A stretch of DNA of 49,540 bases from Chitinophagaceae bacterium (GTDB lineage: Bacteria > Bacteroidota > Bacteroidia > Chitinophagales > Chitinophagaceae), in NCBI GenBank assembly GCA_023251255.1, contig JAHEZD010000039.1, forward strand, positions 1 through 49,540, written 5' to 3'. The position numbers were made by a program, and so were the translations under genes. Below, piece by piece: positions 8,596-49,540 of this stretch. The notes beneath the pieces were generated by a model. That model made no database searches, had not been told where the DNA came from, and saw only the letters and a program-made list of their open reading frames with translations. Position 1 is the stretch's first letter; every line of letters starts with the position of its first letter.

Positions 8596-8604
8596 AAGCA
8601 GAAT

Positions 8605-8633: not shown

Positions 8634-8667
8634 CAAACGGATCCTATTAAAGAGTTATCAATTCAGC

Positions 8668-10191: not shown

Positions 10192-10195
10192 TCGC

Positions 10196-10242: not shown

Positions 10243-10261
10243 TATAGACAAGCTAACGTCA

Positions 10262-12875: not shown

Positions 12876-13075
12876 CAGTCTATTTATTTAAAGCCTGTAA
12901 GATAGATAAAGTTTGTTTTTATTGCTAACGAACAGTTGACCAAAAAAGCTTCTCCCGACCATCTCGGAGATGACCGAAGACATGCTTGTATTATATCGTT
13001 ATTCAAAAATTGTTTCTTCAAGACATAATTTTCATCCACGTAACTCGTGGTTGAAACTTTACCTACATTTAGAGC

Positions 13076-14494: not shown

Positions 14495-14528
14495 CTAATG
14501 ACAATTGGGTTGTTAAGGGAAATCAATT

Positions 14529-24360: not shown

Positions 24361-25470
24361 ATGAAGCTATTTATCAAGGGGCTGGTTACTGTATCAATAA
24401 TGGCATCATGTGCAAATGTGCATGCACAATTCCGTAAGTATTCCAATGAATTTTTAAACATCGGTGCCGGCGCCAGGGGCTTGGGCATGGGTGGTGCCAC
24501 GGTAGCAAGTGTTACTGATGCCACTGCTGCTTATTGGAACCCGGCAGCATTGGTCCATGTTACGGACCATCCAAGTTTGTGCGTTATGCATGCAGAATAT
24601 TTTGCGGGCATTGGAAAGTATGACTATGCCTCGCTTGCCATACCCACTAAAAATGGCAATAGGACCTTGGGAATAAGCTTTATGCGTTTTGCAGTGGATG
24701 ATATCCCCAACACTTTGTACCTAGTTGAACCGGATGGTTCCATCAACTACAACAATATCACCACTTTCTCCTCAGCCGATTACGCCGTACTGTTGTCTTA
24801 CGCACAAGTGTTCAAGAAGACGGACAATATGCAGATAAACTTTGGTGGCAATGCCAAGGTCATTTACCGGAGTGTGGGAACATTTGCGAAAGCCTGGGGA
24901 TTTGGCCTGGATGCCGCTTTGCAGATGCGGAAAGACAATTGGCGTTTTGGCCTGGTGGCAAGGGATGTTACTACCACTTTCAATGCTTGGTCATTCACCT
25001 TCAGTGAAAAGGAAAAAGAAATACTCTACCTCACAAAAAATGATATTCCCGTAAAAAGCACGGAGCTAACAGCACCGAGGCTGATAGCAGCGGCTGGGTA
25101 CAATTTTGTGTTCAATAAGAAGTTCAGCTTGCTTGCAGAAGCCGATTTGCATTTTACGTTTGATGGGAAACGGAATACCGTAATCAGCACCAATGCTATA
25201 AGCATAGACCCCAATATTGGTGTGGAAGCAAACATCAACAACAGCGTTTTTCTCAGGGCCGGTATCTCCAATTTCCAGAAGGCACTGGAAGATGGCGACA
25301 CTACCAACCAGAAGAAAGTATGGATTTACCAACCAAGTTTGGGGGCAGGTTTCAAGTTTGGCAATGTGGGCATTGACTATGCCTTTACCAATTTGGCCAA
25401 TCAGGCAAACCCATTGTACACGCATGTTTTTTCTTTGCGGATTGATTTGGTGAAAAAGGAAACGAAATAA
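24361..25470 (+). CDS. PorV-family outer membrane protein (PorV2-like), T9SS-associated
   Basis: 369 aa. Signal peptide (LVTVSIMASCANVHAQ) followed by the diagnostic N-terminal plug-like sequence FLNIGAGARGLGMGGATVAS...AAYWNPAAL, the hallmark of the PorV/PorQ (FadL-like) beta-barrel family. The rest reads as alternating beta strands and ends in a strand with a penultimate basic segment. In known T9SSs PorV binds the CTD of secreted cargo and shuttles it from the SprA translocon to the PorU sortase on the outer membrane. Its place between two C25 sortase-type genes suggests the three act together as a second attachment module (inference); the next gene starts 38 bp downstream. Confidence 0.8.
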   Translation: MKLFIKGLVTVSIMASCANVHAQFRKYSNEFLNIGAGARGLGMGGATVASVTDATAAYWNPAALVHVTDHPSLCVMHAEYFAGIGKYDYASLAIPTKNGNRTLGISFMRFAVDDIPNTLYLVEPDGSINYNNITTFSSADYAVLLSYAQVFKKTDNMQINFGGNAKVIYRSVGTFAKAWGFGLDAALQMRKDNWRFGLVARDVTTTFNAWSFTFSEKEKEILYLTKNDIPVKSTELTAPRLIAAAGYNFVFNKKFSLLAEADLHFTFDGKRNTVISTNAISIDPNIGVEANINNSVFLRAGISNFQKALEDGDTTNQKKVWIYQPSLGAGFKFGNVGIDYAFTNLANQANPLYTHVFSLRIDLVKKETK

Positions 25471-31333: not shown

Positions 31334-31839
31334 CCCTGCTTTATCTAACGGTTTATCCATGCTTGCTCCATTTATGTATGATTGCTACAGAAGCGGTCAA
31401 TAGGTACACAACTAAATGAAGCCATATGAATCCTTTTTATTCAAATGCAATTGCATTGCATCTTTCCAACAGTTATACTGTTGTCTCCAACCATTGTACA
31501 CAGTACGGATCAGGTTTATCAAACAACCTAGCTGGTCAATCATCGCGTCATTTCTTTGTCCCGGAGCTATTTAACAAGCATTGAATAAGTACCCTTGTTG
31601 CCATTGGCTCCCCCATTGAGCATATCGCATCTCAAATACCCTTTTAAATACCCATATCAACGATTGCTTTATGCAAGAAATAGTCACGATAGTATTGTTG
31701 GTTGTACCCGGTAATACAAGGCAGTTGGCAAATGGTTCAATAGCAAACAAAAATGCAAAGCCAATATTGATTGAATGGCCCAAACAATAATCTCCATTAT
31801 ATAAAACGCGCTCCTCAAAATTTCTTAAACGATTGCCTT

Positions 31840-34800: not shown

Positions 34801-37461
34801 ACAGGAACAGCCTTTGCAGGGGGCGACCAAACAATAACCGCCGCATCCGATGCAACAAAATATTTCAGGTCCAAAGCAACAGGTAACTGGAGCGACTATA
34901 CCACTTGGGAATCATCGGATGATAACATTTCCTGGTTCAATGCCACGCTTTCACCAACAAGTGCAGCCACTGCTATTACGGTACTGTCTGGACATACAGT
35001 TACGGTAACAGCAGGCGTTACGATTGATGACCTAACGGTGAATGCTGGAGGTCAGGTAACTGTGAACAGCAGCGTTACCCTTATAATAGCCAATGGTGCT
35101 GCTGACCCTGATGTAACCATCAACGGCAAACTGGTAAGCGCTGGTACCATTACCACCACAGGTACATTGACCATCGGTGCAACAGGCGAATACCAACATG
35201 CCCAAAATGGCGGCACCATCCCAACTGCCACATGGGCCACAGGCTCAACGGCAAACATCACTGGTCTGACCACCACATCGCCAGGTGGCCGTGGGCAGGT
35301 GTTCAGCAATTTCATTTTTGATTGCAGTGGCCTGACTGCCCAAATTGTTTGGGGCTCAAGCCTGCCAACTGGCCCTACAGGAGCTGGAACCTTCCAGGTC
35401 ACCAATACCATGACCGTAAAACGGACCGGCTCAAGTACACTGCAACTGCATTCATCAGGAGGTCAGGAAAGAATAACGGTTGGGAATTATGTGCAGAATG
35501 GCGGTAGCGTTTATTTAATAAATGGCTACGGCGGAACATCGGGTGGTGCAGACAGGATCTTTACTGTGAACGGCACTTTCACCATAGACAATTCCGTTGC
35601 TGCCAGCCCATTATTTTCTATCTCAAACGGAACAGCAGCTTCGGTTAAGCCGTTTACGTTGAATGTGGGAGGTGATATGACCATTGGTACAGGTGCAACA
35701 GTTCAGGCTGATATTACCAACATTCCCAGTAGCAGTCTCATATTCAATGGTACAGGAACGCAGGTACTCACCGTGAATGGCATATTGGGCGATGAGGTCA
35801 TTACTGTGAACAAAGCATCTGGTACAGTGAACCTAGCTAGCGATATCTCCGTTACCAATGCCCTTAACATGACGGCTGGCCAATTGGCATTGGGCAGTTT
35901 CAATGTAACATTGGTATCCACAGCAACCAGAACAGCAAGTATCCCCGCTACAGCACTAGCTACGCCATTCACTTATACAAGTGGCAGGTTCATTGTGCAG
36001 CGTTACATAGCAGGGGGTGCATCCAGCGGTACGCCCGGTAGGCGGGCCTTCCGTTTCCTGGGCCATCCTTTCAATAATTACTTGGATCTCACGCAGCTTA
36101 CCAATCAAATAGATATTACCGGTACAGGAGCCACCACCGCACCCACCGCAGCAAACTTTACACAGTCTGGTACCAATGCACCATCCGCATTCTGGTTCAA
36201 TCCCTTGTTGGCAGACAATGCCACCAATGATGCTGGCTGGCAGCCCTTCACCAATGCACTGCCTGTGAGTGGAAGCGATGCCAACGCTTGGAAACTTGCC
36301 CAGGGTATAAGGGTACTGGTAAGGGGAGCAAAAGGGGAGGGCCTTACAGGCGGCACTTACACCGCAAGCAATGTTACCCTTAGCATGGCTGGCCAGGTCA
36401 ATGTGGCCACCACTCCCATTGGCGTAACATTGGCCACCAACGCTGTGCCCGGAGCAGGCTGGAACCTAGTAGCCAACCCATTGCCATCAACCATAGAAAT
36501 ACAGGCAAAGCTTAAAGCATTGCGTACAGCCGCAATAGGTGGGGCCAATAGCAACCTCGGCGCCGTGGCCTATGTATGGAACCCCAACAAGGCAGCCACA
36601 GTAAGGGGTGGTTACGATGCCATTGACCTAACAGCGGCAACCAGCTATTACCTGCCCATGAGCAGTGTGGTGCTGGTACAAACAACCACCGATGGTAATA
36701 CGGCACTCACATTCTCCGAGTCCGATAAAAGCACCAGTGCAGCAGCTTCACTGTTCAGGACAACAGGCATCAACAATGCCATCGTACTGCAGTTGATGGA
36801 TGCAGGCAATAACCAACTGGATGAAACATTCATCCGTTTCAACAATGGTGCCGCCACAAAGTTTGAGTCCAGCGATGGAGGCAAATTGTTGAATGACTAT
36901 GCCCTGTACAGCGTAACAAACGATAACGTAAAAACCTACATCAACAGCCAGCCCGAACCATCCAATGACACCAAAATTCGATTGGGGATCTATAGCGGTG
37001 CAGCAAAGGATTTCACGATCAAAGCAACTGAACTTAACCTGCCCATTGGCATGGATGTTTACCTGAAGGACAACTTCACCAACAAGCTGGAACTGGTAAC
37101 CGGAACAAATTATACCTATACGTTCAGCACCACTTCCAATGCTGCAAGCAGTGGTGCAGGTAGGTTTGAACTCCTGTTCTCCAAATCAGTGGTACCAATG
37201 CCATTGCCAACAGGTTTCTCCATTAAGTTGAGCCCCAATCCAGCTACCGATAAGCTGCTTGTTACATTCAGCAATGAAGAGCAGGCAGGTACCATACTTA
37301 CCATCACCAATGCAGAAGGTAAGCTGGTAAAAACAATCAATGCAGGCAATGTACTAACAGGCCAGCTAAGTATTGATGTAAAGGGGCTTGCCAAAGGCAC
37401 TTACTATGTTACATTGAACAATGGCAAGCAAAAGAAAACAGAGAAATTGCAGGTGCAGTAA
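31840..37461 (+). CDS. Giant secreted T9SS cargo protein, adhesin-like
   Basis: 1873 aa from the ATG at 31840, which starts a clear signal peptide (KKLITLIVVLCAFYAVSA); a 23-codon upstream extension is rejected. Residues about 20-690 are Gly/Ser/Thr/Asn-rich strand repeats (GNLTISGGTF-type), typical of a parallel beta-helix. Two tandem beta-sandwich-like repeats of 150 residues begin near 702 and 852 (QVG.AITTSLG.GAHTF against QIG.DINTSLG.GTHSF). A second beta-helix-like block begins with KATGNWSDYTTWES near 1010. A C-terminal module (from about 1384) is shared with the 2106-aa sortase-like protein, and the last 80 residues are a type A sorting domain (KLSPNPATDKLLV ... GTYYVTL). Predicted to cross the outer membrane by the T9SS and be attached to the surface. 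Function, probably adhesion or biofilm, is inferred. Confidence 0.85.
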   Translation: MKKLITLIVVLCAFYAVSATTYYSKNNSNPATAANWAPTRGGTGTAPSNFTTSGDVFVIQSPNNMATTGTWTLGASVTLQIENGATLTANNAVTINAAGTFQIDNGGTYVHNNSTTTAVFNGTCTFGASSQFTVTASASTLIAASKSIDFGNLTINTASGDITCNGSVHSVQGNLLVQATGTGSFRLGAASFPIATTISGNLTVQAGIFTFNTSSGGTPTVTVNGNVILSGGVLNACGSSGTSIFNITGDMTLSGGSFNGSSNSSGISTTTIGGNLAISSGTFGMNSSTASNTVANITGNVTISGTGIMGNSTGGGGGYTINITGNLNIQTGGSVVLTGTANSTRVMNIWLGGNFNMTGGTFDCSSVLSSTTPFFRFAGGQPTATFTQSGGTFTTFYSTNSNRGFDWSIATGKTVTFNNAFTLPTGRSFKDSGTLVTTVPITNNGTFTIGGAAVTGTFQLNDGGSVTGTALTYAALGRLSYNGTSAAQTTTDLELPTTAAPNDIIINNSNGVTLHASKAIAGALTMTAGKLALGANTLTVGSATGSASSYVNASSAGKLKQGVGGSAVLYPIGTSSTYNPVTLTNAGTLDNYSVGVISGAPANLTDATQQVQDTWTIAEDVNGASNLTVQTQWSLTDEGPSFNRNSNLKVGRYTGAGTSWEKYAAVLAGANPYTATASGFTAIGTAGVAFSTGNFFVNTADVALSSPAQVAAGNIGQGTTNNVIYSFQVAASTADATLNAVAFTTVGTYTATDIVNYKLWYSATNIFGAAVQVGSAITTSLGAGAHTFNSMIAVVPNGSTGYFFITADIAFTATTGNINIAAIAPSDLTFEAANVTGSTTVGGAQTIVATTVMLASANPAVAASTISRTINKNPIYKFTLTPATAGALLNQVDFTTGGTYAAADLSRFQLWYKASDDLSTAVQIGTDINTSLGTGTHSFTGLSQSINLGATGFFWITTDVPVSATLLNTVNVSALTMADITLASGSKTGTAFAGGDQTITAASDATKYFRSKATGNWSDYTTWESSDDNISWFNATLSPTSAATAITVLSGHTVTVTAGVTIDDLTVNAGGQVTVNSSVTLIIANGAADPDVTINGKLVSAGTITTTGTLTIGATGEYQHAQNGGTIPTATWATGSTANITGLTTTSPGGRGQVFSNFIFDCSGLTAQIVWGSSLPTGPTGAGTFQVTNTMTVKRTGSSTLQLHSSGGQERITVGNYVQNGGSVYLINGYGGTSGGADRIFTVNGTFTIDNSVAASPLFSISNGTAASVKPFTLNVGGDMTIGTGATVQADITNIPSSSLIFNGTGTQVLTVNGILGDEVITVNKASGTVNLASDISVTNALNMTAGQLALGSFNVTLVSTATRTASIPATALATPFTYTSGRFIVQRYIAGGASSGTPGRRAFRFLGHPFNNYLDLTQLTNQIDITGTGATTAPTAANFTQSGTNAPSAFWFNPLLADNATNDAGWQPFTNALPVSGSDANAWKLAQGIRVLVRGAKGEGLTGGTYTASNVTLSMAGQVNVATTPIGVTLATNAVPGAGWNLVANPLPSTIEIQAKLKALRTAAIGGANSNLGAVAYVWNPNKAATVRGGYDAIDLTAATSYYLPMSSVVLVQTTTDGNTALTFSESDKSTSAAASLFRTTGINNAIVLQLMDAGNNQLDETFIRFNNGAATKFESSDGGKLLNDYALYSVTNDNVKTYINSQPEPSNDTKIRLGIYSGAAKDFTIKATELNLPIGMDVYLKDNFTNKLELVTGTNYTYTFSTTSNAASSGAGRFELLFSKSVVPMPLPTGFSIKLSPNPATDKLLVTFSNEEQAGTILTITNAEGKLVKTINAGNVLTGQLSIDVKGLAKGTYYVTLNNGKQKKTEKLQVQ

Positions 37462-38956: not shown

Positions 38957-38988
38957 AAGGCTCCGTCCAGTTATGGATGGGGCTTTTT
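38957..38988. terminator. Shared terminator between convergent genes
   Basis: AAGGCTCCGTCCA pairs (with G-U pairs) with TGGATGGGGCTT around a 4-nt loop, followed by TTTTAA on the plus strand. The loop contains the stop codon of the minus-strand PaaK-like gene. Confidence 0.6.
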
Positions 38989-40401
38989 AATGGTGGAAAT
39001 CACCGCCTTGATCTTCCCATTGTTCGTTTTGGGCAAATCGTCCACTTCTTCAATGATCACTTCCACATCACCCAATTGGCTATGCACCCTGGCAATGATC
39101 ATTTTCCGCTCCTCCGCTGCAAGCTTATCATCAGGCACTATTTTAAGGGTGATGGTTTCTAGGGAATTTTGTACCACCTGCGCCATCTTCACCGTCTTCA
39201 GTCCCACGAAAATGCCATGGAAGCGTACCATTTCCCTGCCATCCCTCCCATACACCACATCCTCTATACGGCCCACAATTTCCTGCACCACGGGCATCTG
39301 CCTGCCGCAATTGCATGGCTTATCGCTCAATACAATCTGGTCACCAATCCTGTAACGTATCAATGGCTGGTCATGGTTTAAAAAGCCCGTGCAGTAAACA
39401 GTACCTATTTCGCCAGCGGCCACGGGTTGCAGTGCATCGTCCAGCACTTCAATGATACCGCAATCCGGACTGATGTGCAGGCTGCCATGTTCACATTCAG
39501 AAATCAGCCCGCAGTATTCCATCCCGCTCCAGCTATCAAACACTTTGCATTGGTAAACCTCGCCCATCACCTTCCGCATGTCAGCAGTCAGTTTCTCGCT
39601 TGAGGTAAGCACGGCCTTCAATGGTGGTGGCACCAGCCCCGCCTGCTGGAACATCCTCGCCAGTATATAGTTGCTCATGGCATACCCCGTCATGTAATCA
39701 ATCCGGTATTTGCTGAAAGCCTCAAAATAGTCCCCGATGTTTGCAGGACTGATATGGTAGGCAGAAAAGTACACCTGCTTCTCAAAGTAATTGTAGCGGT
39801 AGAAAGGCGCCCTGCCCTCCCCATCTGTCACCACCCTGCGCCCACCGATCATGCCACGGCTATTGTTCCTGCCCACGCCTGCCCAGTTCTTGATCCTGGC
39901 CTCGCTAAGGGCAAAATAGCGCTGGTGCATATCGTCCGAATAGCAGATCTGTACGGGCGTGCCCGTACTGCCACTGGAACTGTGGAAGCTGCCGTTCTTT
40001 TCCCTTGTATGCGCCATTAGGGTGGTAGTGCCAAATTTCCGCACATCCTCCTTTGACGTGATGGGCAACCGGTCCAGTTTGCTGGGGTCTATATTTTCCA
40101 GCATGGCCTCGGTAAGTCCCGCCTCCTGGAATTTTTGCTGGTAGTAGGGTACTTGCTTAAAAGCATGGAGCAGTATTTTTTTCAATTGCATGGCTTCATA
40201 ATCCGCCCATTCCTGCTGCGTAAAAGCCTCCCTTTCCTTGGCGGCATGGTATTCCCTTTCAAAAATGCCACCATAGCGCTTCTTCTTCCAGCCGTACCCA
40301 TAGGCCGACACCATAATGTTCTGGAACCAGACAGGGCTTAGGTCATAAATTTTATTGTAGATAGCCAAAGCAGGAAATTTAGGTATGAAAATACGGTACA
40401 A
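38971..40401 (-). CDS. PaaK/CapK-like adenylate-forming enzyme (phenylacetate--CoA ligase family)
   Basis: 476 aa. ANL-superfamily features: P-loop SSSGSTGTPVQ near residue 142, motif YMTGYAMSNYIL near 230, SWSGMEYCGLISECEHG near 295 (A5-type region), and LIRYRIGDQIVLSD near 345 with the conserved Asp. The last 90 residues form the small mobile domain, including the near-terminal lysine in TNNGKIKAVIS. Members adenylate aromatic or other carboxylic acids and often pass them to CoA; CapK-type relatives work in capsule or secondary metabolite pathways. The start at 40401 is a TTG with a stop just upstream (ATG alternative about 29 codons in). The first residues (IPKFPALAIYNKIYDLSPVW) look like real family sequence, so the long form is preferred. 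Confidence 0.8.
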   Translation of the reverse strand: MYRIFIPKFPALAIYNKIYDLSPVWFQNIMVSAYGYGWKKKRYGGIFEREYHAAKEREAFTQQEWADYEAMQLKKILLHAFKQVPYYQQKFQEAGLTEAMLENIDPSKLDRLPITSKEDVRKFGTTTLMAHTREKNGSFHSSSGSTGTPVQICYSDDMHQRYFALSEARIKNWAGVGRNNSRGMIGGRRVVTDGEGRAPFYRYNYFEKQVYFSAYHISPANIGDYFEAFSKYRIDYMTGYAMSNYILARMFQQAGLVPPPLKAVLTSSEKLTADMRKVMGEVYQCKVFDSWSGMEYCGLISECEHGSLHISPDCGIIEVLDDALQPVAAGEIGTVYCTGFLNHDQPLIRYRIGDQIVLSDKPCNCGRQMPVVQEIVGRIEDVVYGRDGREMVRFHGIFVGLKTVKMAQVVQNSLETITLKIVPDDKLAAEERKMIIARVHSQLGDVEVIIEEVDDLPKTNNGKIKAVISTIKKPHP

Positions 40402-40710
40402 ATAAAATGAATTGCTGATTAAATACTACAATGGAAACAAGCAAAGGGAAACAGGCAATGAAATACTCGCACACGAATTAACCTGTCAACCAATTTTTGC
40501 CAGATAACTGGATTATTCAAGGCCAGGGTTGCCTATAAGAAATTGCTTGAGGGCTTTAGGTGAGAGAATGAACGTTCATTACTAAAGTATTGCAAGGTTG
40601 TTCGCAATGCAGTAAATAGAAATTGGTATTTTATTAAATAGAAATAGCTGCCCTAGTTTGGAATAAGCCCCTGCTTAGCACAATTCAAAAGAGAATGTTC
40701 AACAACCGAG
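40402..40710. other. Intergenic region upstream of the PaaK-like gene, 309 bp
   Basis: AT-rich. Contains the 14-bp palindrome at 40567-40580; nothing else recognised. Confidence 0.5.
40567..40580. promoter_or_regulatory. 14-bp palindrome, TetR-family operator-like
   Basis: AATGAACGTTCATT is a perfect palindrome of the type bound by many TetR/AcrR regulators. On the minus strand it follows TACTTTAG (one mismatch from TAnnTTTG) by a few bases, a repressor-like position for the PaaK-like gene 166 bp downstream. No TetR gene is in the window. Confidence 0.4.
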
Positions 40711-42474
40711 CTATGTAATATTCAAAAACTCCCTCGGATTATACCTAGCTATCCTATCCAGTTCCCCTTCACTTAATGCTGCCTGCAAATAGGCCAGCAT
40801 TTCCTTTTCACTTTTGTGGTTGCGCACCACATAAAAATCCGTACCAAACAGCACCCGCTTTTGCAGCACAGGATGCTGCAATGTCTGCTTCAATAAGGGG
40901 AAAATAACAGGGCTGTGTACAATATAACTGATATCCGCATAGAGATTGGGGTATTGCAGCATCATGCTGCGGATAATGCTGTACCAGTCCACATGCTTCC
41001 ATACCTGCTCCAGCACAAACATGGAATCCTGGATAGGCCCCGGTTTGGTAAAGGCAAGCCCCTGCCCGGGTTTCCGCAATAGTTGGCTGGTTAGGTCATC
41101 TCTATCGTTCTCAAAGAACTTTTGCCATTCATCATCCCCGCCAAAATGCCCAAAGCAGAGTTTAAGTTTGGATAGGTCGTGCAGCAGTTTGGTATCATCG
41201 TTTGTGTAGCCAAACAGTTCCTGTATAGCCTTGCCCTCTTTGCTTACCACAATCCGCAACAGCGGTTCCTCCACCAAACATAGGTAGTTCAATGGGTGCG
41301 TAAAATTGTTGATGAAATCCCTGTTTTTCAGCTCCGGCAGCAGCAGTGGCCTGCAAGTGCTGTTACCATCCGCTTGTTGGAACACGGGATGGTGGCCCCA
41401 TTCCTTTTTCTTCGTGCCCCTATAAAAAATGGTGCCACGGATGGCATGGGTCATAATGGGCAGTTGGTGGTCGGCAGCATATTTCCATAAGGGCAATAAG
41501 GCCCCGTCAAAAGGGTAATAGCCCAATGCAGGATAGATCTTGAAGCCACTGAAGTTTTCCTTCTCCAGGTAGTCCTTGATAAAACAATCCTTTAATTCCA
41601 CTGTTCCTGGATTGCCCATCTTCCAATCAAAGAATACCTGTGTGCCCACCAGCTTCCTCCTTGGGTCAATAAAGATGAAAGGGTAGGCACAGTCCTTGTA
41701 TTTTTTGTTCCTTTTGATAACGGCCAGTTCCCGCATCTGCACAGCATAGTCCCCTTCATTGGGCACAGTGCCTGCATCCATGAAAGCCATGTCCATGGGC
41801 AGCAGTACAAAGCCCGAGCCTATAGGGTACTGGTCCTTTAGTTTAATGAATATCCTGCCCTGTTGCCGGTAGTAAGCAAAACGCCCGATATTGAGATAAC
41901 GGGCCATGAACTGTACCGTTTTTTCATTGGGCAATAAACTAAGGAACCCCCACATTTTCTTGAGCAGGAACCAGAGCAGTTTCCTTCCCCATGCAATAAA
42001 GAAAATGGTAAACAGTACCACCCCCAGCTTCAATAAAAAGCTATGCGGTAAAAAAAGCAGGCGCCTGTTATTTAACCAAATAACCGCTTTGGCAATGGCA
42101 TCCCTAGTTTGTGGATTGGGCTTGATGAAAAGATGGGTAAGCCAATTGAACACATACACCACCGCATGGTAGGAAATCACCAAATTGATCAGTGCATTGA
42201 TGAACGACAGGGGGGAGTGCCTCAGGATAAAGGAACGGTAAGTATAAAAAGTTTCCTGTAGCCGCTTGTACCATAGCTGGTGCTTCCATTGGTTGGGGCT
42301 GACTGGGCTGAGGTACCACCACCTGCAAAGCTTCAAGATGAACGGGATGGTCAGCCATTTGTACAAGGGGTAGGGCAGGAATGTTTTGGCTAGGTAGGGC
42401 GGAAGGTTGGCACCCACAAAAACATGCGTATGGCAGTTGATGATGGGCGGTTGGGTGCTGTTGGATAGGCTCAT
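40711..42474 (-). CDS. Membrane-associated amidohydrolase family protein with large insert
   Basis: 587 aa. Amidohydrolase_2-type metal-site motifs are present but far apart: IINCHTHVFV with H15 and H17 at the N-terminus, FKIYPALGYYPFDG near 310, PIMTHAIRGTIF near 345 (metal His), LCFGHFGG near 440 (metal His) and VLFGTDFYVV near 550 (catalytic Asp). Between H17 and about residue 250 lies an unusual insert with at least two hydrophobic segments (INALINLVISYHAVVYVF and LLKLGVVLFTIFFIAW), suggesting membrane attachment. Ordinary members of this family are soluble and about 300-350 aa. Acts probably by metal-dependent hydrolysis or decarboxylation; the substrate is unknown. It lies upstream of the PaaK-like gene on the same strand, 309 bp away. 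Confidence 0.75.
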   Translation of the reverse strand: MSLSNSTQPPIINCHTHVFVGANLPPYLAKTFLPYPLYKWLTIPFILKLCRWWYLSPVSPNQWKHQLWYKRLQETFYTYRSFILRHSPLSFINALINLVISYHAVVYVFNWLTHLFIKPNPQTRDAIAKAVIWLNNRRLLFLPHSFLLKLGVVLFTIFFIAWGRKLLWFLLKKMWGFLSLLPNEKTVQFMARYLNIGRFAYYRQQGRIFIKLKDQYPIGSGFVLLPMDMAFMDAGTVPNEGDYAVQMRELAVIKRNKKYKDCAYPFIFIDPRRKLVGTQVFFDWKMGNPGTVELKDCFIKDYLEKENFSGFKIYPALGYYPFDGALLPLWKYAADHQLPIMTHAIRGTIFYRGTKKKEWGHHPVFQQADGNSTCRPLLLPELKNRDFINNFTHPLNYLCLVEEPLLRIVVSKEGKAIQELFGYTNDDTKLLHDLSKLKLCFGHFGGDDEWQKFFENDRDDLTSQLLRKPGQGLAFTKPGPIQDSMFVLEQVWKHVDWYSIIRSMMLQYPNLYADISYIVHSPVIFPLLKQTLQHPVLQKRVLFGTDFYVVRNHKSEKEMLAYLQAALSEGELDRIARYNPREFLNIT

Positions 42475-42724
42475 AAGCTAGGTTGATGGCATTAAGGTAG
42501 TACTTAGTTCCCAAAAAAGAAAGCAATCAGCAGTTATTGTTGAATGGACCAATCTGTTAAGTAGGCAGGTTTTACCTGCCTTAACCATAGGTTCAATATT
42601 GATTGGCCTCCAATAAATGGAACAGGTTCCCCGGTAAAGAAGTAAATAGCGGATCATTACCGTCTTGGCTTCGTCACTGAAACACCATATTGCTGGGGGA
42701 CCGTCAAAAATTTGCCAAAAAAAG

Positions 42725-42825
42725 GGATGTCACCTAAAATTTTTTTTTGCAACCTGTCACCTAACCCAAGGTCACCAAAAATTTGTCACCAAAAAAAATG
42801 TGACTAAAAAATGTGACAAAAATGA
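42725..42825. repeat. GTCAC/GTGAC repeat patch with poly-A spacers
   Basis: GTCACC occurs four times in direct orientation and GTGAC twice inverted, separated by A/T runs. TTTGTCAC (42782-42789) pairs exactly with GTGACAAA (42813-42820). The core GTCACCAAAAAAAATGT is nearly the same as GTCACAAAAAAAATGT in the 15.5 kb patch, so the two belong to one repeat family. Confidence 0.65.
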
Positions 42826-42913
42826 TGTGCATCCCCAACATGGAACCTCCAACAATTTTCTCCTCCATCAATCCATCCCCGATAGGTAACCTCCCGCGTC
42901 CTCCTCCATCAAT

Positions 42914-42950
42914 CACCAATTAACCAGTTAACCAATTAACTAATTAACCC
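42914..42950 (+). repeat. AATTAACC-type short tandem tract
   Basis: Four imperfect 8-9 bp units built on (A/G)TTAAC(C/T)(A): a simple-sequence tract of unknown role. Confidence 0.5.
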
Positions 42951-42990
42951 CCTTCCAAACAGCATGTTTCCGTATAATTACGGCCCCCTT

Positions 42991-43071
42991 TAAGTGCTAC
43001 CACGCATACAAATAAGTACTGCCACGTATAGGCCATAAGTGGTGCCACTTACCCGGCATAAGTAGTACTAC
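42991..43071 (+). promoter_or_regulatory. Four-copy direct-repeat array upstream of the decarboxylase operon
   Basis: TAAGTGCTACCAC, TAAGTACTGCCAC, TAAGTGGTGCCAC and TAAGTAGTACTAC begin at 42991, 43013, 43036 and 43059, a regular 22-23 bp period (about two helical turns). Units 3 and 4 are also dyads (AAGTGGTGCCACTT and AGTAGTACTACT). The last copy ends about 160 bp before the ATG at 43232. The regular phasing suggests cooperative binding of a transcription factor. Confidence 0.6.
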
Positions 43072-43231
43072 TGAATTTTTGGTAACCCCTTTTAAAACCC
43101 AATATTAGCTACTATTTTACATCCGCAACCGGTAATATAGAAAGGATTATTGTAATGCTTTAAACAGCAGCCGAACCTTCCATTGGCCCAGTTGCAGTTA
43201 ACCAAAACTAAACACTTAACAAACTAGGACA

Positions 43232-44788
43232 ATGCTGAATGATGAACGCTTTTATGGGCACACTGCCTTGATAGACGAAGAGCACGGCGTTGAAACAAAG
43301 GAAGGCCCCAACCCCGCAATTTTTGACCCGCAGTTGTTCCGTGAACATGCAGAAGCCATCCTCCCCACACTGGAATCCCATTTGGCCGATCATTCCATCA
43401 GGGGGCTCAAGCTGGTGGAACCCGCTATACTGTTGAGCCTTGCCAAGGACCTCATGACAAAGGAACAAGGGGCCGTGGTTCCTTTCGACAGGGAAAAGTT
43501 CAAGGCCATCATCGATTTATATATAAAGACAGGCATACAGGTACATTCACCCGGCTTCATGGGAAGGCAGTTTTCCGGTGTGGTACCATTGGCAGGTGTG
43601 GTGGATATGGTCAGTTCAATTGTCAACCAGCCTTCCTCCTTTTATGAGGCAGGCCAGTTGCCCAATGTGGCCGAGCGCATCATGGCCAACGAGTTCAACC
43701 AGTTTATCGGTTACCAGCCCGACCGTTTTACCATGATTACCACATCGGGCGGTTCGCTGGCCAATTTAACGGCCCTGCTAGCTGCCCGCAACGATAAGTT
43801 CCCAACCGTATGGAACGAGGGCCTTTGGGCATTCGAAGGGCAGCTCCGGCCCGCCATCGCCATAAGCGAGGAAGCCCATTACAGTGTCAGCAGGGCTGCA
43901 GGCATATTGGGCATAGGGGAGAACCAATTGGTGCGCCTGCCCATTAACCAGGCAGGGCAGATAGATATAACCAAAGTGCCACAAGCATTGGAAGCTGCCG
44001 AACAACGTGGCCTCAAGGTATTCTGCATGGTTGCTTCTGCAGGTACCACTTCCATGGGTGCTTTCGATGATATAGACCAACTGGCAGATATTGCTGGCAC
44101 CAAGGATATTTGGCTGCACATAGATGGGGCCCATGGCGGCAGCCTACTGGTATCCGATGAACTGCGGCACAAGCTCAAGGGCATCCAGAAGGCAGATTCC
44201 CTTACTTGGGATGCCCATAAAATGCTCTTTGTACCATCGCCCTGTTCGCTGCTCTTCTACAGGAACAAGGAAAAAAGCTATGCGGCATTCAAGCAGGTGG
44301 CCAGTTATGTATTTGAGAAGGAACCGAATATCTATACCGAATTCGATAGTGCCGAAAAGAATTTCGAATGCACCAAAAGGCCCATGATCATGAACCTCTG
44401 GGTACTATGGGCACTGCATGGAAGGGCCCTGTTTTCCAATAAGGTGGACCACCTTTGCAAGTTGGCCAGGCATGCCTGCCGCATACTGGAAAAGGAGCCG
44501 GATTTCCAGGTACTGCACCAACCGGAGTCCAACATACTCTGCTTCAGGTACCTACCGAAGGAACTGGACAATTACAGTATTGCCGATTTCCAAGTGGAGA
44601 TCAGGAACAGGGTATGCAAGCACGGCCAGTTCTTCATTTCAAAAGTGGACATCCATGGTGAAAGTGCATTGAGGGTAGTGTTCATGAACCACGAAATAAA
44701 AATGTCGCATTTCCGCATGCTGCTGCAGGCAGTGGTGAAATCCGGACAGCAGGTCATCAATGAATATCAACAGCATCCAAAACAATAA
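43232..44788 (+). CDS. PLP-dependent group II amino acid decarboxylase
   Basis: 518 aa. Fold-type I features: TTSGGSLANLTALLAARN near 170 (phosphate-binding Gly-rich segment), WLHIDGAHGGSLL near 290 with the Asp that pairs with the pyridine nitrogen, and SLTWDAHKMLFVPSPCSLL with K330 as the PLP lysine. These place it with aromatic amino acid, glutamate and diaminobutyrate decarboxylases; substrate cannot be fixed from sequence. Likely cytoplasmic homodimer making an amine from an amino acid. First gene of an apparent six-gene operon (21 bp to the next gene) behind the TAAGT array. Pairing with an adenylate-forming enzyme suggests the amine, or an acid joined to it, enters a conjugation step (inference). 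Confidence 0.9.
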   Translation: MLNDERFYGHTALIDEEHGVETKEGPNPAIFDPQLFREHAEAILPTLESHLADHSIRGLKLVEPAILLSLAKDLMTKEQGAVVPFDREKFKAIIDLYIKTGIQVHSPGFMGRQFSGVVPLAGVVDMVSSIVNQPSSFYEAGQLPNVAERIMANEFNQFIGYQPDRFTMITTSGGSLANLTALLAARNDKFPTVWNEGLWAFEGQLRPAIAISEEAHYSVSRAAGILGIGENQLVRLPINQAGQIDITKVPQALEAAEQRGLKVFCMVASAGTTSMGAFDDIDQLADIAGTKDIWLHIDGAHGGSLLVSDELRHKLKGIQKADSLTWDAHKMLFVPSPCSLLFYRNKEKSYAAFKQVASYVFEKEPNIYTEFDSAEKNFECTKRPMIMNLWVLWALHGRALFSNKVDHLCKLARHACRILEKEPDFQVLHQPESNILCFRYLPKELDNYSIADFQVEIRNRVCKHGQFFISKVDIHGESALRVVFMNHEIKMSHFRMLLQAVVKSGQQVINEYQQHPKQ

Positions 44789-44809
44789 AACAAACGATTC
44801 AATCAAGCA

Positions 44810-46351
44810 ATGGCACAAGGAAAATTGACCACTAAAGCTATAGAGAAACTGGTAAACGGATGGATACCCGAAACCGAAATGAAACCGGGTTCCATTGAGG
44901 CAGTACTGGAACTGCCCGCATTTGTGGACAAGCTAAACGCATGTAGTAAGCATTTCAATACCAACTATGCCGAAGTGGACCTGAAAGTGCAGGACGCACT
45001 GGTGATGAGGCGACTGGAGCAATTGACCAATATCTGCCTGCTGAACCCCCTGTGGAAGGAACTCATAGAAAAATCGGGGCTGGAAGCAGCACCCAGGAAC
45101 TGGGAAGAATGGCAGCAACTGCCCGTGTCAGATAAGGCTTCCCTCAATGCCTTCTTTTCAGGTAATAGACCCGGCATGGTGGTACCGCTGAACCGTGGCG
45201 GCTTTGAAATAGTGGCCAGCGGCGGCACCAGCAGTGGTATGCCTTCCGAAACCGTGTATGCCATCAAGGAACTGCATACCACTTACAGGATAGCGGGCGA
45301 CTTCATGGGCAGGTACATGCTGGACAGGTACCTAGCTGGGGATGCCCCCAAATGGATGGCCACCACATTGGCAGATTACCAGATGTGGAGCAGCGGCACC
45401 ATGGTAGGTGGTGTGCTCCAGAATATACCCGGTGTTAACTATATCGGTGCTGGGCCAGTAATGAAAGATGTGTACCAGCACATGATGGGCTACGAAGGAC
45501 CAAAAGCCATCATGGGCATTTCGCAGGGCATTGCCATCTTGAAGGACCTAGGCATAGGCATGGCAGAAGAAGCAAGGAACAGTTTCCGCGTGGGCATGTA
45601 CGGCAGTGGTGTATTGTCGCAGCGCAAGCGGGCAGAATTGCTGGAAGTATATCCCAATCTCGTGTTCCTCAGCTACTTTGCTGCCACACAGGCTGAAACC
45701 ATTGGCCTGCAACTGGACCACGCTTTACCCTACCTGGCAACCATTCCGGGCCTGCACCTCATAGAGATTGTGGACAGTGAAGGCAAGTGGGTGGCCGAAG
45801 GTGAAGAAGGCGAACTGGTGGTAACCAGGCTGCATGCAAATGAAGCCCCCGTGCTGCGGTTCAAACTGGGCGACAGGATGGTACGCCGTCCCCTATTGGA
45901 CGGCCCGGGACTGAAGACACAGCAAATGGAATTTTCTGGCAGGAGCGGGGACGTACTGCATATCTGCGATTCCCAATACCCGCTCAAGCTGGTATATGCT
46001 TCCCTGCAAGCAGAACTGAAAAAGGCTGGTATCATCGATTTGGAAGCAACAGCACACGAAATACAGTTCGTTAACCTCAGGCAGTCAAGGATACTCACCC
46101 TGCTGGCAGCAGTGGACGATCCCTTCTATACGGATACCAGAATGAGGGGCATATTTGGGCCTGAAGGGGGCAGTTTCCTCTTTGCACAGGCCCTCATGTC
46201 TTCCCTGTCCATATTCAACAGCGGGGAAGCCAATCCCGTATCATTGGAGAAAACAGGCTATAGGTTCGACATCAGGTTCGTGAACAAGCTGTCGAAAGAG
46301 GTCCACAGAACAGAAGTGGGGAAAGTGCCATTATTGAGGGATGTTTTTTAA
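44810..46351 (+). CDS. PaaK-like adenylate-forming enzyme (ANL superfamily), divergent
   Basis: 513 aa. The ATP-binding P-loop is EIVASGGTSSGMPSETVYAI near residue 135. The region LVFLSYFAATQAETIGLQ near 280 takes the A5 aromatic/acid position, and GELVVTRLHANEAPVLRFKLGDRM near 330-355 carries the conserved Asp of the adenylating family (compare vvT....pliRyrtGD). The C-terminal 120 residues would be the mobile subdomain. It is clearly distant from the other PaaK-like protein at 38971. Expected to activate a carboxylic acid as an acyl-adenylate. It lies 21 bp after the decarboxylase gene and 48 bp before the first AidA/PixA-type gene, which ties the enzymes to those proteins. Product unknown. 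Confidence 0.75.
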   Translation: MAQGKLTTKAIEKLVNGWIPETEMKPGSIEAVLELPAFVDKLNACSKHFNTNYAEVDLKVQDALVMRRLEQLTNICLLNPLWKELIEKSGLEAAPRNWEEWQQLPVSDKASLNAFFSGNRPGMVVPLNRGGFEIVASGGTSSGMPSETVYAIKELHTTYRIAGDFMGRYMLDRYLAGDAPKWMATTLADYQMWSSGTMVGGVLQNIPGVNYIGAGPVMKDVYQHMMGYEGPKAIMGISQGIAILKDLGIGMAEEARNSFRVGMYGSGVLSQRKRAELLEVYPNLVFLSYFAATQAETIGLQLDHALPYLATIPGLHLIEIVDSEGKWVAEGEEGELVVTRLHANEAPVLRFKLGDRMVRRPLLDGPGLKTQQMEFSGRSGDVLHICDSQYPLKLVYASLQAELKKAGIIDLEATAHEIQFVNLRQSRILTLLAAVDDPFYTDTRMRGIFGPEGGSFLFAQALMSSLSIFNSGEANPVSLEKTGYRFDIRFVNKLSKEVHRTEVGKVPLLRDVF

Positions 46352-46399
46352 AGGGACCCGGAACTGACTATTATATAAAGCATCGATAACAGTGTACAA

Positions 46400-46828
46400 A
46401 TGAAAAAGATAAACATCAACATAGCAGTGGATACGGTAGAGGCACTTTCCAAGGAAACCTTGGTGAACCATATTTACGTGATGGACGACAGCACCTTCAA
46501 CAGCAAGGGGCAGGGCACCGGTCACTTGGAAACCACCTGCCAGCCCGGGCAGGTGATCCATTGGGTAGCCACGGCCATTGACCTGCAGACACCCGTATGC
46601 ATCAGGAACATCTCCTTTCTGGCCCCGCACACTGGTGAGGAAAAGCCCAGCCACCCAAGCCCGGCCACCTGTACCATGAGCGAACTGGACCTCCTTACCT
46701 GGAGTGGCACGGTGCCCTATTACATGGAACCCGGCGTGCATTACAGGTACAGGTTGGAACTGCAGATAGGGAACGGCAAATTGAGCGTGATGTATGTGGA
46801 TACCCTTTCCCTGATATATGAATATTAA
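46400..46828 (+). CDS. AidA/PixA (inclusion body family) protein, copy 1
   Basis: 142 aa, no signal peptide. Family pattern visible: an N-terminal strand INIAVDTVEALSKE, then NHIYVMDDST, GQGTGHLETTCQPGQVIHW near 35-55, and a C-terminal part WSGTVPYY...HYRYRLELQIG...YVDTLSLIY. PixA of Xenorhabdus forms intracellular inclusions, and AidA of Ralstonia/Burkholderia is quorum-regulated; biochemical function is not established. First of four paralogs that share D-x2-x-AL, IY-[LVI]-[MDL]-D, a GT-L motif and a final Y-x-Y strand. Probably cytoplasmic. Confidence 0.8.
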   Translation: MKKININIAVDTVEALSKETLVNHIYVMDDSTFNSKGQGTGHLETTCQPGQVIHWVATAIDLQTPVCIRNISFLAPHTGEEKPSHPSPATCTMSELDLLTWSGTVPYYMEPGVHYRYRLELQIGNGKLSVMYVDTLSLIYEY

Positions 46829-46900
46829 ACAGTCAACAATGACCATATACCCAATGGCAGCGGTGCCGGGGGACAATGGTCAAACCATAAAACCGAAAAA

Positions 46901-47695
46901 ATGAGCCAGGAAATAACAATCATTGTAATGGTAGATGTGGAAGCCGCTTTAAAGGACAACAAGCTGGACGGTAATATCTACTTGATTGATAACCTCAGGA
47001 CCGATGGTTCGGAAGGGGTAGGCACGGACCACCTGACCACTGTAATCAATGGCAGCTACTGGAGCGATGGTTCGCAGGCCACCGAAGTCATTACCAATTG
47101 GCTCACGGGAGCACTGGGTTCCTTGCCACCAACACTTCCCAGGAACTTCCATGTGGAGCGTACCAAGAGCATCAACGAAGGGTTGCTGCAAACAATCAAG
47201 AACCTGCCGGCCCGCAAGACAACAGCCGCGGCCAAAGCAAATGCACCTGCATTGTTGTCGGACGTGGTCAATAAGCTTACCAAGACCACTTTTATCAAGG
47301 ACCCGGAAGGCAACACAAGGGATTTTGGCATCAAGCCACTTACTGTTACTGGTGACCATTTTGAGAAGGGCAAGGACGATCCCTCCGAACAAAGTTACCT
47401 GGCGCCTGTGATTACAGACATTACCGGGGAAGCAGTAGACAAAAATGTGTTCTTCACCTGCCAACTGGGTACACCCGTGTATATCAAGGATGGTTGGTAC
47501 TGGTGTGCCACTGCAGACACCAGTAAAGTGGGCGAGTACAGTTATACGATGCACATCACCCTGTACAAATTAGTGAACAATGTGTACGAACCCGTGAAAA
47601 TGACGCATGATGCCAAAATAAAAGTGAGCACCGCTCCACAAAGGAACGGTTTCACAGGAGCAGGTATGGGCATCATCCCATTGCCGCAAGCGTAG
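46901..47695 (+). CDS. AidA/PixA-family protein, copy 2, with internal expansion
   Basis: 264 aa, nearly twice its siblings. Residues 1-50 match the family (ITIIVMVDVEAALKDNKLDG, IYLIDN, GVGTDHLTTV). Then a segment of about 110 residues follows with no family counterpart: helical and rich in K/A, with ARKTTAAAKANAPALL. The C-terminal half resumes the pattern at GWYWCATADTSKVGEYSYTM and ends in IKVSTAPQRNGFTGAGMG. The insert might be an oligomerisation or partner-binding segment. Start at 46901 follows 72 bp after copy 1. Same operon; function unknown. Confidence 0.65.
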   Translation: MSQEITIIVMVDVEAALKDNKLDGNIYLIDNLRTDGSEGVGTDHLTTVINGSYWSDGSQATEVITNWLTGALGSLPPTLPRNFHVERTKSINEGLLQTIKNLPARKTTAAAKANAPALLSDVVNKLTKTTFIKDPEGNTRDFGIKPLTVTGDHFEKGKDDPSEQSYLAPVITDITGEAVDKNVFFTCQLGTPVYIKDGWYWCATADTSKVGEYSYTMHITLYKLVNNVYEPVKMTHDAKIKVSTAPQRNGFTGAGMGIIPLPQA

Positions 47696-47733
47696 CAGCA
47701 TTCAATCGATAACAAAGGACAATCAATAACAAC

Positions 47734-48129
47734 ATGGCAAATAGAACAATCACCATCATCTCTGTTATAGACGTGGTAAGTGCCTTGGCAGAAGGTACCC
47801 TCGACAAGAACATCTACCTGCTGGACAACAACAAGGCCCATGGCAGCACGGATGAGGGTACCAGTGAGCTCAAGACAAAGGTCAGGCCCGGTGACGTGCT
47901 CGTCTGGACGGTGAGCCCCATTGAACCCGAAGTGTACGTGGGCATCACCGAAATTACCATGGACAAAGAGTTCTGTGAGCCGGAGAAGCAGTACTATGAA
48001 GGAACCGATGTAGCCTATTGGGTGGGGCAAGTGAAGAAGGAAGTGGACAATCTCCAGTACCACGCAAAGTACAAAGTGGGTACCCGGAAGGATGAGTTCC
48101 CATGGCATTTAACGTTGATAGGAAGCTAA
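47734..48129 (+). CDS. AidA/PixA-family protein, copy 3
   Basis: 131 aa. Family core: ITIISVIDVVSALAEGTLDK, NIYLLDNNKAHGS, GTSELKTKVRPGDVLVWTV near 45-65, then VGITEITMD, VAYWVGQVKKEVDNLQYHAK and the closing strand WHLTLIGS. The N-terminal half is the one most like copy 2. The C-terminal dimer-type strand is shorter than in copies 1 and 4. It follows copy 2 by 38 bp and precedes copy 4 by 27 bp, so it is surely in the same transcript. No signal peptide or membrane segment. Confidence 0.8.
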   Translation: MANRTITIISVIDVVSALAEGTLDKNIYLLDNNKAHGSTDEGTSELKTKVRPGDVLVWTVSPIEPEVYVGITEITMDKEFCEPEKQYYEGTDVAYWVGQVKKEVDNLQYHAKYKVGTRKDEFPWHLTLIGS

Positions 48130-48156
48130 TTAATTGAACAAATTATAATACCCGAT

Positions 48157-48702
48157 ATGGCAACAGCAGCTACAAAAAAGGAAGGGAGCTGGGATTCCAG
48201 TTCCGTGCAATTAAATATCGTCACGTTTGTTGATGTGCAGAAAGCGGTGGCCAAAGGTTCTACTGAAGGCTGTGCTTACATAATGGACAATAGTCCCAAC
48301 AGCAGGAACCAGGGCACACCACACCTGCAAACCGTATGCAAGCAGGGGCAGGTACTCAACTGGATCATTTATGCCATGGATATGGACAGGAAGCCCGATG
48401 GTACCTGGCCACCATCTGTACGCATCAACAATATTGTTTTCCTGGACAGCGAGGGCAATGATGTGTCCATGATCAGGGTCATGGACGAAATGAAGATATT
48501 GGGTGGTCCCGACAAGATACGCTCCAAGTCTACCCCCGTTTATTACTATTGGGCAGGCATCGTGGAAGGTAGCCTGCCTGTGGGTACTTACAAGTACAGG
48601 TTTGTACTGGAGTTTGATCCCATCAGCCCTTCCACCCAAAAAACCTATCTCAACTTAGATGGCCAATCACTCGAAGTGCGCAACACCGTTGTGTTTTCCT
48701 GA
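48157..48702 (+). CDS. AidA/PixA-family protein, copy 4
   Basis: 181 aa. A 16-residue Ser/Lys-rich leader (ATAATKKEGSWDSSSVQ) precedes the family core: LNIVTFVDVQKAVAKGSTEG, AYIMDNSPNSRNQGTPHLQTV, CKQGQVLNWIIYAMD near 60-85. The C-terminal sandwich contains YYYWAGIVEGSLPVGTYKYR near 130-150 and a final strand YLNLDGQSLEVRN. Most similar to copy 1 (GQV[IL][HN]W, LETTC/LQTVC). Last gene of the operon; a hairpin terminator follows about 150 bp downstream. Confidence 0.8.
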   Translation: MATAATKKEGSWDSSSVQLNIVTFVDVQKAVAKGSTEGCAYIMDNSPNSRNQGTPHLQTVCKQGQVLNWIIYAMDMDRKPDGTWPPSVRINNIVFLDSEGNDVSMIRVMDEMKILGGPDKIRSKSTPVYYYWAGIVEGSLPVGTYKYRFVLEFDPISPSTQKTYLNLDGQSLEVRNTVVFS

Positions 48703-48858
48703 TAGCCAACAATCGTTTTCTTACAGCAATCTTTAATGGGTTCGTGCTTTCCGTCCTGGTATTCTTACCGGGACTTGTTTTTTATTGTGGTCATGTAGCT
48801 AATTGTCATGTGGCAATAACGTTTGGACCAATCCGGTTCGTGAACCCCTACCAAGCAA

Positions 48859-48917: not shown

Positions 48918-49540
48918 TTACCTTATGAGTATGATCTTGAACTCGACGCGCCTGTTTGCCTGGCGCCCGTCGGGGTTGTCGCTGCCGTTGATGGTATCGG
49001 GCTTCACGGGGCAGCATTCGCCCTTGCCCGTTGCCTTGAGCCTTGCTGCTGCCACGCCCCTGCTGATGAGGTAGTCGCGGCATGCACCGGCCCGCTGCTG
49101 GCTGAGGTGGAGGTTGTATTCCACGGTTCCCTGTGCATCGGTGTACCCAATGATTTCCAGTCCGAGGCCCTTCTCACGTTTCAGTATGCCCGCGAGTGTA
49201 TCGAGCACCGCAGCGGTTTCCTTCCTCAAACTGTACTTCGCAAAGTCGAAGAGCGCCACCTGTTCCCCCGGTCCCGGTGTGACGGTAACGGGCACGGCAG
49301 TGTCCATTGGCACCACCTTCTCCACGGGCACCAGGCACACCACGGTGTTCACCAAAGTGTCCGCAGCATCACCTGCTGGCCCGGAAAAGGCCAGGGAGCC
49401 ATTGCTGTATTCCCCTTTGGATGCATCCAGTTGCATGGCCCCGAAGGCCTTCACCTCGAAGAAGTACCTACCGCCCGCATCGGTGTTCTGCGTTGCCACC
49501 GCCCTGCTGCCGGCAGTGACCCTTACGGTGGCACCTTCCA
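48918..49540 (-). CDS. OmpA-family protein with beta repeat, N-terminus beyond the window (partial)
   Basis: The frame is open to the window edge, so the gene is truncated; a GTG at 49499 is an unlikely start. The extra upstream residues (GATVRVTAGSRA then ATQNTDAGGRYFFEV) look like a carboxypeptidase-regulatory or CNA-B-like beta repeat. An OmpA-type peptidoglycan-binding domain follows: QVALFDFAKYSLRKETAAVL, IIGYTDAQGTVEYNLHLSQQ with the conserved D/R-type positions, SRGVAAARLKATGKGE and NRRVEFKIIL at the end. Likely outer-membrane anchored, periplasmic OmpA end. It is the most GC-rich gene here. Whether it belongs to a T9SS PorE-like or PD40-OmpA protein cannot be told without its N-terminus. 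Confidence 0.75.
   Translation of the reverse strand, partial: EGATVRVTAGSRAVATQNTDAGGRYFFEVKAFGAMQLDASKGEYSNGSLAFSGPAGDAADTLVNTVVCLVPVEKVVPMDTAVPVTVTPGPGEQVALFDFAKYSLRKETAAVLDTLAGILKREKGLGLEIIGYTDAQGTVEYNLHLSQQRAGACRDYLISRGVAAARLKATGKGECCPVKPDTINGSDNPDGRQANRRVEFKIILIR

Follow-up and report, generated by a model that had tools for sequence, protein, structure and literature searches.

A conserved six-gene cassette joining a PLP-dependent decarboxylase and a PaaK-fold ligase to four AidA/PixA/MakCD-type proteins

Why would a decarboxylase and an adenylate-forming ligase share an operon with four small AidA/PixA-type proteins? This question is raised by six same-strand genes in a contig of a Chitinophagaceae bacterium (JAHEZD010000039.1, assembly GCA_023251255.1). 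The window analysed is the whole 49,540-base contig, and the source genome is a 6.1-Mb draft of 188 contigs. The genes are dec, encoding a pyridoxal 5'-phosphate (PLP)-dependent decarboxylase, lig, encoding a PaaK-fold ligase, and aid1 to aid4, encoding AidA/PixA/MakCD-type proteins. We found no earlier description of a system of this composition, and the six genes form a fixed, conserved unit in distant bacteria; this unity is well supported. We suggest that the cassette combines a dedicated small-molecule pathway with a four-subunit cytoplasmic AidA-fold assembly, a reading to which we give a probability of about 0.45.

Distribution, conserved order and co-occurrence

In a first sample of 59 genomes, the source genome included, MakCD-type genes were detected in two, the source genome and genome G023, where the same six genes follow in the same order and dec and lig are 60% and 62% identical to those of the window. 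Scanning the genomes of 84,980 species with two short peptide patterns from the ligase, a search by which more distant ligases would be missed, detected 71 further loci, 73 together with the window and G023. The order dec-lig-aid1-aid2-aid3-aid4 on one strand, as given by domain coordinates, is kept in 72 of the 73 loci, and the remaining one (L081) stops within the ligase at a contig end. The median spacing between the matched domains over the loci was 38, 41, 32, 42 and 33 bp.

The cassette is present in five named phyla, where it is rare and patchy. The 72 rows of the ligase tree comprise Actinomycetota (49), Pseudomonadota (12), Bacteroidota (6), Acidobacteriota (1) and Chloroflexota (1), together with three unlabelled rows, namely the window, G023 and a possibly misbinned Aminicenantes bin. 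We detected lig in one of 395 Bacteroidota genomes (the source's own), in 5 of 199 Streptomyces genomes (the seed genome counted) and in 3 of 394 genomes of the window's family (the source, G023 and a probable Filimonas zeae); no further ligase relatives were found in the family at E 1e-15, in a search whose first pass scores few candidates per genome. Judged by the genus names in the scan, many carriers belong to what we take to be soil genera. Harmless carriers available in culture include Filimonas zeae (L027), Streptomyces violascens (L022) and Andreprevotia sp. IGB-42 (L015).

The co-occurrence of the aid genes with the enzymes was analysed in samples centred on genomes carrying the cassette. 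MakCD-type genes (E 1e-5) were present in the same five of 199 Streptomyces genomes and the same one of 395 Bacteroidota genomes as lig. Among 274 genomes of the class of carrier G449, searched for MakCD-type genes alone with the ligase left out, the only genome with such genes was G449 itself. In each of the 30 scan genomes searched, out of 71, a single contig holds all the MakCD matches, two to four in number, as read by eye. With single window proteins as queries, lig, aid3 and aid4 were all detected in the same seven of 72,556 plasmid records, four of them typed conjugative; these records are not independent, one being an 11.85-Mb, chromosome-sized Nonomuraea record and four being plasmids of Bradyrhizobium elkanii whose match scores are equal. 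Without exception in these samples, close AidA-type genes were confined to genomes or records that also have lig.

The original prediction regarded the six genes as a dedicated unit, and both the shared order and the matched presence in Streptomyces and plasmids agree with this. It also asked whether AidA genes are usually found without the two enzymes, and here the answer is divided: close homologues were always accompanied by lig in our samples, whereas distant superfamily members occur without these enzymes, as in the V. cholerae mak operon (in the portion of PMC11484084 available) and the Burkholderia aidA operon (in that of PMC9060813). Like the original prediction, which knew of no described system of this composition, a search of titles and abstracts in the open-access literature found none that joins an AidA/PixA protein, a PLP decarboxylase and a PaaK-like ligase.

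Three rhizobial plasmids (L085, L086 and L087) carry the cassette amid transposases, with a cysteine hydrolase as a seventh gene. Toxin-antitoxin genes are located near the cassette on two of the three, and L087, from Bradyrhizobium elkanii, is typed conjugative.

The enzymes, the AidA-type proteins and added genes

The dec product matches PF00282 with E 2.2e-56 and 191.7 bits, against a family cut-off of 27. Its top solved relative is human GAD1 (E 1.6e-55), followed by GAD2 and CSAD. Among curated models PanP, an aspartate decarboxylase, came out on top with a score far under the model's cut-off, and dec stayed under the cut-off in all 15 NCBIfam models listed. Most of the expected catalytic residues are in place: K330, H216 and D298, at least 97% conserved (weighted, 70 aligned sequences), are presumably the PLP lysine, the stacking histidine and the aspartate, as placed by the GAD1 alignment. 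The family match and these residues agree with the prediction of a PLP decarboxylase as the first gene.

The lig sequence is divergent. Its Pfam scan gave zero matches, and the top curated models were weak (FlxY, E 3.7e-8; TIGR02155, E 2.1e-6, both of the acyl-CoA-ligase/PaaK kind), the score against the curated PaaK model TIGR02155 being 26.5 bits against a cut-off of 646.3. The AlphaFold2 model (mean predicted local distance difference test score, pLDDT, 85.7) matched BT_0428 (4rvo, E 2.8e-23; template modelling score, TM, 0.79 by target length) and PaaK1 (2y27, E 1.2e-21) in Foldseek, so that the predicted fold supports the PaaK-like assignment of the second gene. Judged from these scores, lig is a relative of PaaK and not PaaK itself. 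In 72 sequences 118 positions, K505 included, are at least 97% conserved (weighted); the stretches VASGGTsxG, SYFAATQAE, GD and the lysine of the C-terminal GKxPL resemble what we take to be adenylation motifs of the ANL superfamily.

All four aid proteins match the NCBIfam MakCD model NF049870 (aid1 E 2.4e-14; aid2 1.1e-8, over residues 5-50; aid3 2.5e-24; aid4 3.5e-12), all of them under its cut-off of 110 bits (best 85.7 bits), which was passed in none of the 30 cassette genomes. The Pfam PixA family PF12306 gave 16.1 bits for aid1 against a cut-off of 21, with no listed match for aid2-aid4; a PF12306 search of the whole source genome, run without a positive control, found nothing. The only phmmer matches of aid3 in the PDB were 8rqy (E 2.8e-16) and MakD 6tct (E 7e-10), i.e., MakC/MakD. 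The single aid protein modelled was aid2, whose family was the least evident of the four; the fold of the model (pLDDT 86.0) matches MakD 6tct (E 8.5e-7), 8rqy (E 7.5e-6), PixA 4lzk (E 7.9e-5) and, weakly, 4q52 of Chitinophaga pinensis (E 6.1e-3); aid1, aid3 and aid4 are tied to MakCD by sequence. The AidA/PixA assignment originally proposed thus stands at the level of the fold for aid2 (MakD and PixA), while the curated cut-offs are missed and the nearest relatives are MakC and MakD. No signal peptide was seen in the aid proteins by eye.

Lower among the fold matches of aid2 is SO1698 of Shewanella, described as an aspartic peptidase (E 9.3e-3, TM 0.66 by target). An invariant or near-invariant Asp is kept in all four aid groups, and an enzymatic past is conceivable. 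A further, very weak MakCD-like match (G000:C113:34771-34911, E 0.42) lies in a 375-aa frame elsewhere in the source genome and is probably due to chance.

Some loci contain additional genes. In Tenacibaculum (L069 and L074) the order is dec-lig-dec-lig-aid1-4, the enzyme pair being doubled beside one aid set. Three of 72 loci (L013, L015 and L018) have lig and aid1 separated by a class I aminotransferase-like gene; the one of L013 was scanned and matches PF00155 (E 2.4e-63). In 13 of 72 loci an isochorismatase-fold cysteine hydrolase, variable in side and strand, lies at most 636 bp from the cassette; in one more locus it is 2 kb off, and it is also found 3' of the cassette on the three rhizobial plasmids; in L065 the hydrolase start, as read, overlaps aid4. 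Three of the hydrolases were scanned and matched biuret amidohydrolase, generic hydrolase, nicotinamidase and RutB models, all below cut-off. The added genes and the doubled enzyme pair point to small-molecule chemistry.

Evolution, gene layout and surroundings

In a tree of 285 aid rows (FastTree, with long-branch warnings) the proteins form four groups that match gene position, with three label changes, the minimum possible; group support is 95-99 for aid2, aid3 and aid4, and 21 for aid1. This suggests that the set of four is old and that the division into four roles probably preceded the spread of the cassette. The six proteins diverge in parallel, their pairwise distances correlating with r 0.84-0.95, values that shared descent raises anyway. 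Six pairs were compared for the ratio of nonsynonymous to synonymous substitution rates (dN/dS). In five of them every gene of the cassette had a value below 1; the sixth, L051/L066, has few changes and gave 1.07 for aid1 and 1.14 for aid3. In the ligase tree, made by a quick method, 5 changes of phylum label are required, where 4 would be the minimum, suggesting that the spread was old or rare and that the cassette's presence is now patchy; no sign of frequent recent cross-phylum transfer was seen in this tree, and we rejected it as an explanation.

Rows with cut or doubtful frames or starts were left out of the conservation counts (dec of L016, L080 and L081; lig of L081; aid1 of L039; aid2 of L014 and L071). 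The same three aid rows were left out of 288 for the aid tree, and L081 out of 73 for the ligase tree, while aid2 of L080 and L083 were kept despite their short matched parts. The alignments A4 and A5 hold 31 and 33 of 72 rows.

The features of the cassette in the window are listed in Table 1. The coordinates of the six genes and their spacings of 21, 48, 72, 38 and 27 bp are exactly those of the original prediction, which also placed a terminator after the last gene. A stem-loop is indeed present 50 bp past the last stop, with the most pairs among the 8 terminator-like sites of the region scanned. It is only suggestive as a terminator, because shuffled sequences give 9.3 such sites on average and the number of sites is not above this.

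Table 1. Features of the six-gene cassette in the window
Feature	Position	Strand	Length	Basis or remark
dec, group II PLP-dependent decarboxylase (GAD/CSAD/PanP-like)	43232..44788	+	518 aa	PF00282 and GAD1 alignment
lig, stand-alone PaaK-fold adenylate-forming ligase, distinct subfamily	44810..46351	+	513 aa	AlphaFold2 model fold match
aid1, AidA/PixA/MakCD-type protein	46400..46828	+	142 aa	NF049870
aid2, AidA/PixA/MakCD-type protein with long mid-protein insertion	46901..47695	+	264 aa	NF049870 and model fold match
aid3, AidA/PixA/MakCD-type protein, nearest MakC/MakD	47734..48129	+	131 aa	NF049870 and phmmer
aid4, AidA/PixA/MakCD-type protein	48157..48702	+	181 aa	NF049870
Terminator-like stem-loop, then T-rich tail	48753-48774	+		9 pairs, 5 G-C; suggestive only

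The GC content at third codon positions (GC3) of the cassette genes is 0.58-0.71, compared with a mean of 0.47 (sd 0.09) over 185 mechanical background open reading frames (ORFs); the genes fall within the upper 1-10% tail of this background, and their overall GC is also raised. High expression was rejected as the source of this composition, since the GC3 of ORFs recognised by eye as ribosomal proteins is lower (0.34-0.48). A foreign origin of the cassette is favoured, and the composition, being in the upper 1-10% tail only, fits it without proving it. The two neighbours on the - strand (38971-40401 and 40711-42474) have the same raised GC3.

These neighbours, upstream of the cassette on the - strand (38971-42474), encode a second PaaK/CapK-like protein of ordinary size (476 aa) and a 587-aa amidohydrolase-family protein; the PaaK/CapK family of the former was assigned by eye, its one match being to the AMP-binding C-domain, below cut-off. 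At the contig end, an OmpA-family gene (48918-49499) has a second copy on contig C140 (L117) of the source genome. Over the 50 initial residues seen the two are nearly identical, and this repeat may explain the contig end. Further upstream, two giant C25 (gingipain-type) peptidase genes surround a gene with weak, below-cut-off outer-membrane-barrel/PorV matches (ORFs of this region: 17853-24173, 24361-25470, 25509-30650 and 31771-37461), and type IX secretion sorting domains were detected on the first giant C25 peptidase and on the third giant ORF. The region 3287-11677 encodes four radical SAM proteins with B12-binding-domain matches (4266-5714, 6521-7921, 8611-10191 and 10262-11677), two of which pass the B12 cut-off, together with a methyltransferase and a nucleotidyltransferase-like gene. 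In G023 the cassette (L010) has a collagen-repeat gene (12915-14882) on one side and three look-alike genes (4680-6579) on the other; the one of these that was scanned carries a phage tail collar domain.

Proposed role, alternative explanations and known systems

We propose that dec would convert an amino acid, probably acidic or diamino by its nearest families, to an amine or omega-amino acid, and that lig would adenylate a carboxylic acid and, independently of any carrier protein, couple it to this amine or to coenzyme A (CoA). The AidA-fold proteins, of which each of the four occupies a fixed position, would assemble in the cytoplasm into a hetero-oligomer of beta-sandwich subunits, and this would bind, store or shield either the product or the enzymes that make it; the nicotinamidase-like hydrolase beside some cassettes may release or recycle the product. 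MakC and MakD, described as beta-sandwich proteins that are dimeric in crystals and retained in the cell (PMC11484084, in part), fit a cytoplasmic assembly. In B. cenocepacia, deletion of the PixA-type Bnr1 is reported to lower all five PixA proteins (PMC9060813, in part), which fits mutual dependence within the family. The likely use would be a survival or anti-grazer trait, suggested because stationary phase and virulence in nematodes have been linked to known members of the family; this is the weakest step. The original interpretation is partly supported: the dedicated six-gene unit is retained and close aid genes are tied to lig, while more distant members of the superfamily live apart from such enzymes.

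Several observations weigh against this proposal. In 6 of 72 loci one gene was matched over less than 70% of its usual length (dec of L016; aid1 of L039; aid2 of L014, L071, L080 and L083); the dec of L016 is cut by a contig end and the other five may be broken, misassembled or diverged, so that not all copies are proven whole. Group II decarboxylases are expected to have a mobile-loop tyrosine. Tyr368 of dec, one column off the GAD1 loop tyrosine in the pairwise alignment (the role of which we presume), is present in 55 of 70 sequences, the others having Met, His or another residue, and the dec reaction may differ in carriers that lack it. The acceptor of the ligase could be CoA or another compound. 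Above background, no promoter-like signal was detected in the scanned region, and no Bacteroidota-type promoter motif on the + strand of 42475-48702. The hydrolase belongs to a common superfamily and is adjacent in the 13 loci only, an adjacency that may owe something to chance. The descriptions of MakC and MakD are of accessories in a toxin operon, function unknown, and not of storage proteins. In this proposal the chemistry, the assembly, the binding of a product and the ecological role are inferred.

The aid proteins could instead act on the two enzymes as chaperones or regulators, or regulate their expression, the output being an ordinary secreted or diffusible metabolite. The effect of the Bnr1 deletion speaks for this, as does the lowering of other Mak proteins upon MakC/MakD deletion, partly ascribed to polar effects (PMC11484084, in part); however, four distinct paralogs in all 72 full-context loci seem excessive for a simple chaperone, and no DNA-binding family was above cut-off for aid1-aid4 in the Pfam and NCBIfam scans, so we consider it rather unlikely. 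Comparably unlikely is a small-molecule counterpart of mak, in which an anti-predator metabolite replaces the pore-forming proteins and the aid proteins handle it inside the cell. The PDB sequence matches of aid3, MakC/MakD only, and the presumed soil habitat of many carriers are consistent with it. AidA is also cited as required for virulence in C. elegans (PMC9060813, in part). Against it, there is no pore-forming gene in the operon and no known phenotype, and a genome-wide search for the HBL family PF05791 in the source genome was empty, without a control genome known to have the family. With the same caveat of a weak control, a mak-type toxin operon was rejected.

With a carrier-free ligase adjoining an unchanged set of four proteins in 72 of 73 loci, the cassette could also be a protein-modification system, lig tagging the aid proteins via an acyl- or aminoacyl-adenylate. 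We find this quite improbable and rejected covalent tagging: the 97%-conserved positions of aid1-aid4 include no Lys, Ser or Cys, although Thr59 of aid4 and some tyrosines are among them. A chance operon of metabolic enzymes and unrelated AidA genes is hardly credible given one order in 72 of 73 loci of five named phyla and the matched presence and absence, and it was dismissed. An anti-phage defence system was likewise set aside, PADLOC giving only weak matches of dec to SspA and DndA (PLP desulfurases) and none for the other five proteins. A phage origin was rejected as well: lig, the one query used against phages, had weak matches in 3 of 50,697 phage records, none over 80% of its length.

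The small-molecule pathway with an AidA-fold assembly may have a more specific form, which we consider doubtful: an undescribed organelle-like body, in which four irreplaceable AidA-fold subunits would form a cytoplasmic lattice around, or loaded with, a cassette-made amide or amine, which would serve either for storage or as a deterrent set free once the cell is ingested, the cassette itself being carried between species on genomic islands and plasmids. In the samples tested, the close AidA/PixA relatives are tied to two enzymes with assayable reactions, and the product of these enzymes, if found, would be a candidate ligand for an AidA-type protein. The cassette is found in five named phyla; lig and the four aid genes are labelled 'hypothetical protein' in three annotated plasmid records.

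For about two decades AidA/PixA proteins have been known as poorly understood proteins that are quorum-controlled, form inclusions or relate to nematodes (PMC9060813, in part). In Jeongeupia, an inclusion body family protein annotated as AidA is upregulated on chitin (PMC10455584, in part). Judged by paper titles, the proteins named AidA in A. baumannii and PixA/PixB in M. xanthus appear to be different ones. Among the AidA/PixA proteins of Burkholderia, Xenorhabdus and Ralstonia, adjoining paralogs are on record in Burkholderia and Ralstonia, as in the cassette; in the available portions of PMC9060813 and PMC10143992, however, these genes adjoin LuxR-type regulators or each other, and not dec or lig.

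Compared with GAD65/67, CSAD, GADL1, PanP and diaminobutyrate (DABA) decarboxylase, dec is homologous over a long stretch and keeps the PLP lysine, the stacking His and the Asp (roles presumed), but it differs from the known acidic and diamino-acid decarboxylases in its own near-invariant motifs RQFS, QP(S/A)xxYEA and ECTKRP and in a loop tyrosine that is not universal. The ligase shares the fold of BT_0428, PaaK1, NatL2, AjiA1 and ClxA, with a glycine/threonine-rich motif, an acidic motif and a C-terminal lysine (roles presumed), but has 513 aa against about 396-437 aa in PaaK-like aryl-acid ligases, at 12-17% identity. The makDCBAE operon of Vibrio cholerae provides the only PDB sequence matches of aid3 and the nearest folds of aid2, and in both systems the paralogs stand side by side; mak is described as joining two MakC/MakD-type proteins to three pore-forming proteins (PMC11484084, in part), whereas the cassette, with no pore-forming gene among its six, joins four aid proteins to a decarboxylase and a ligase.

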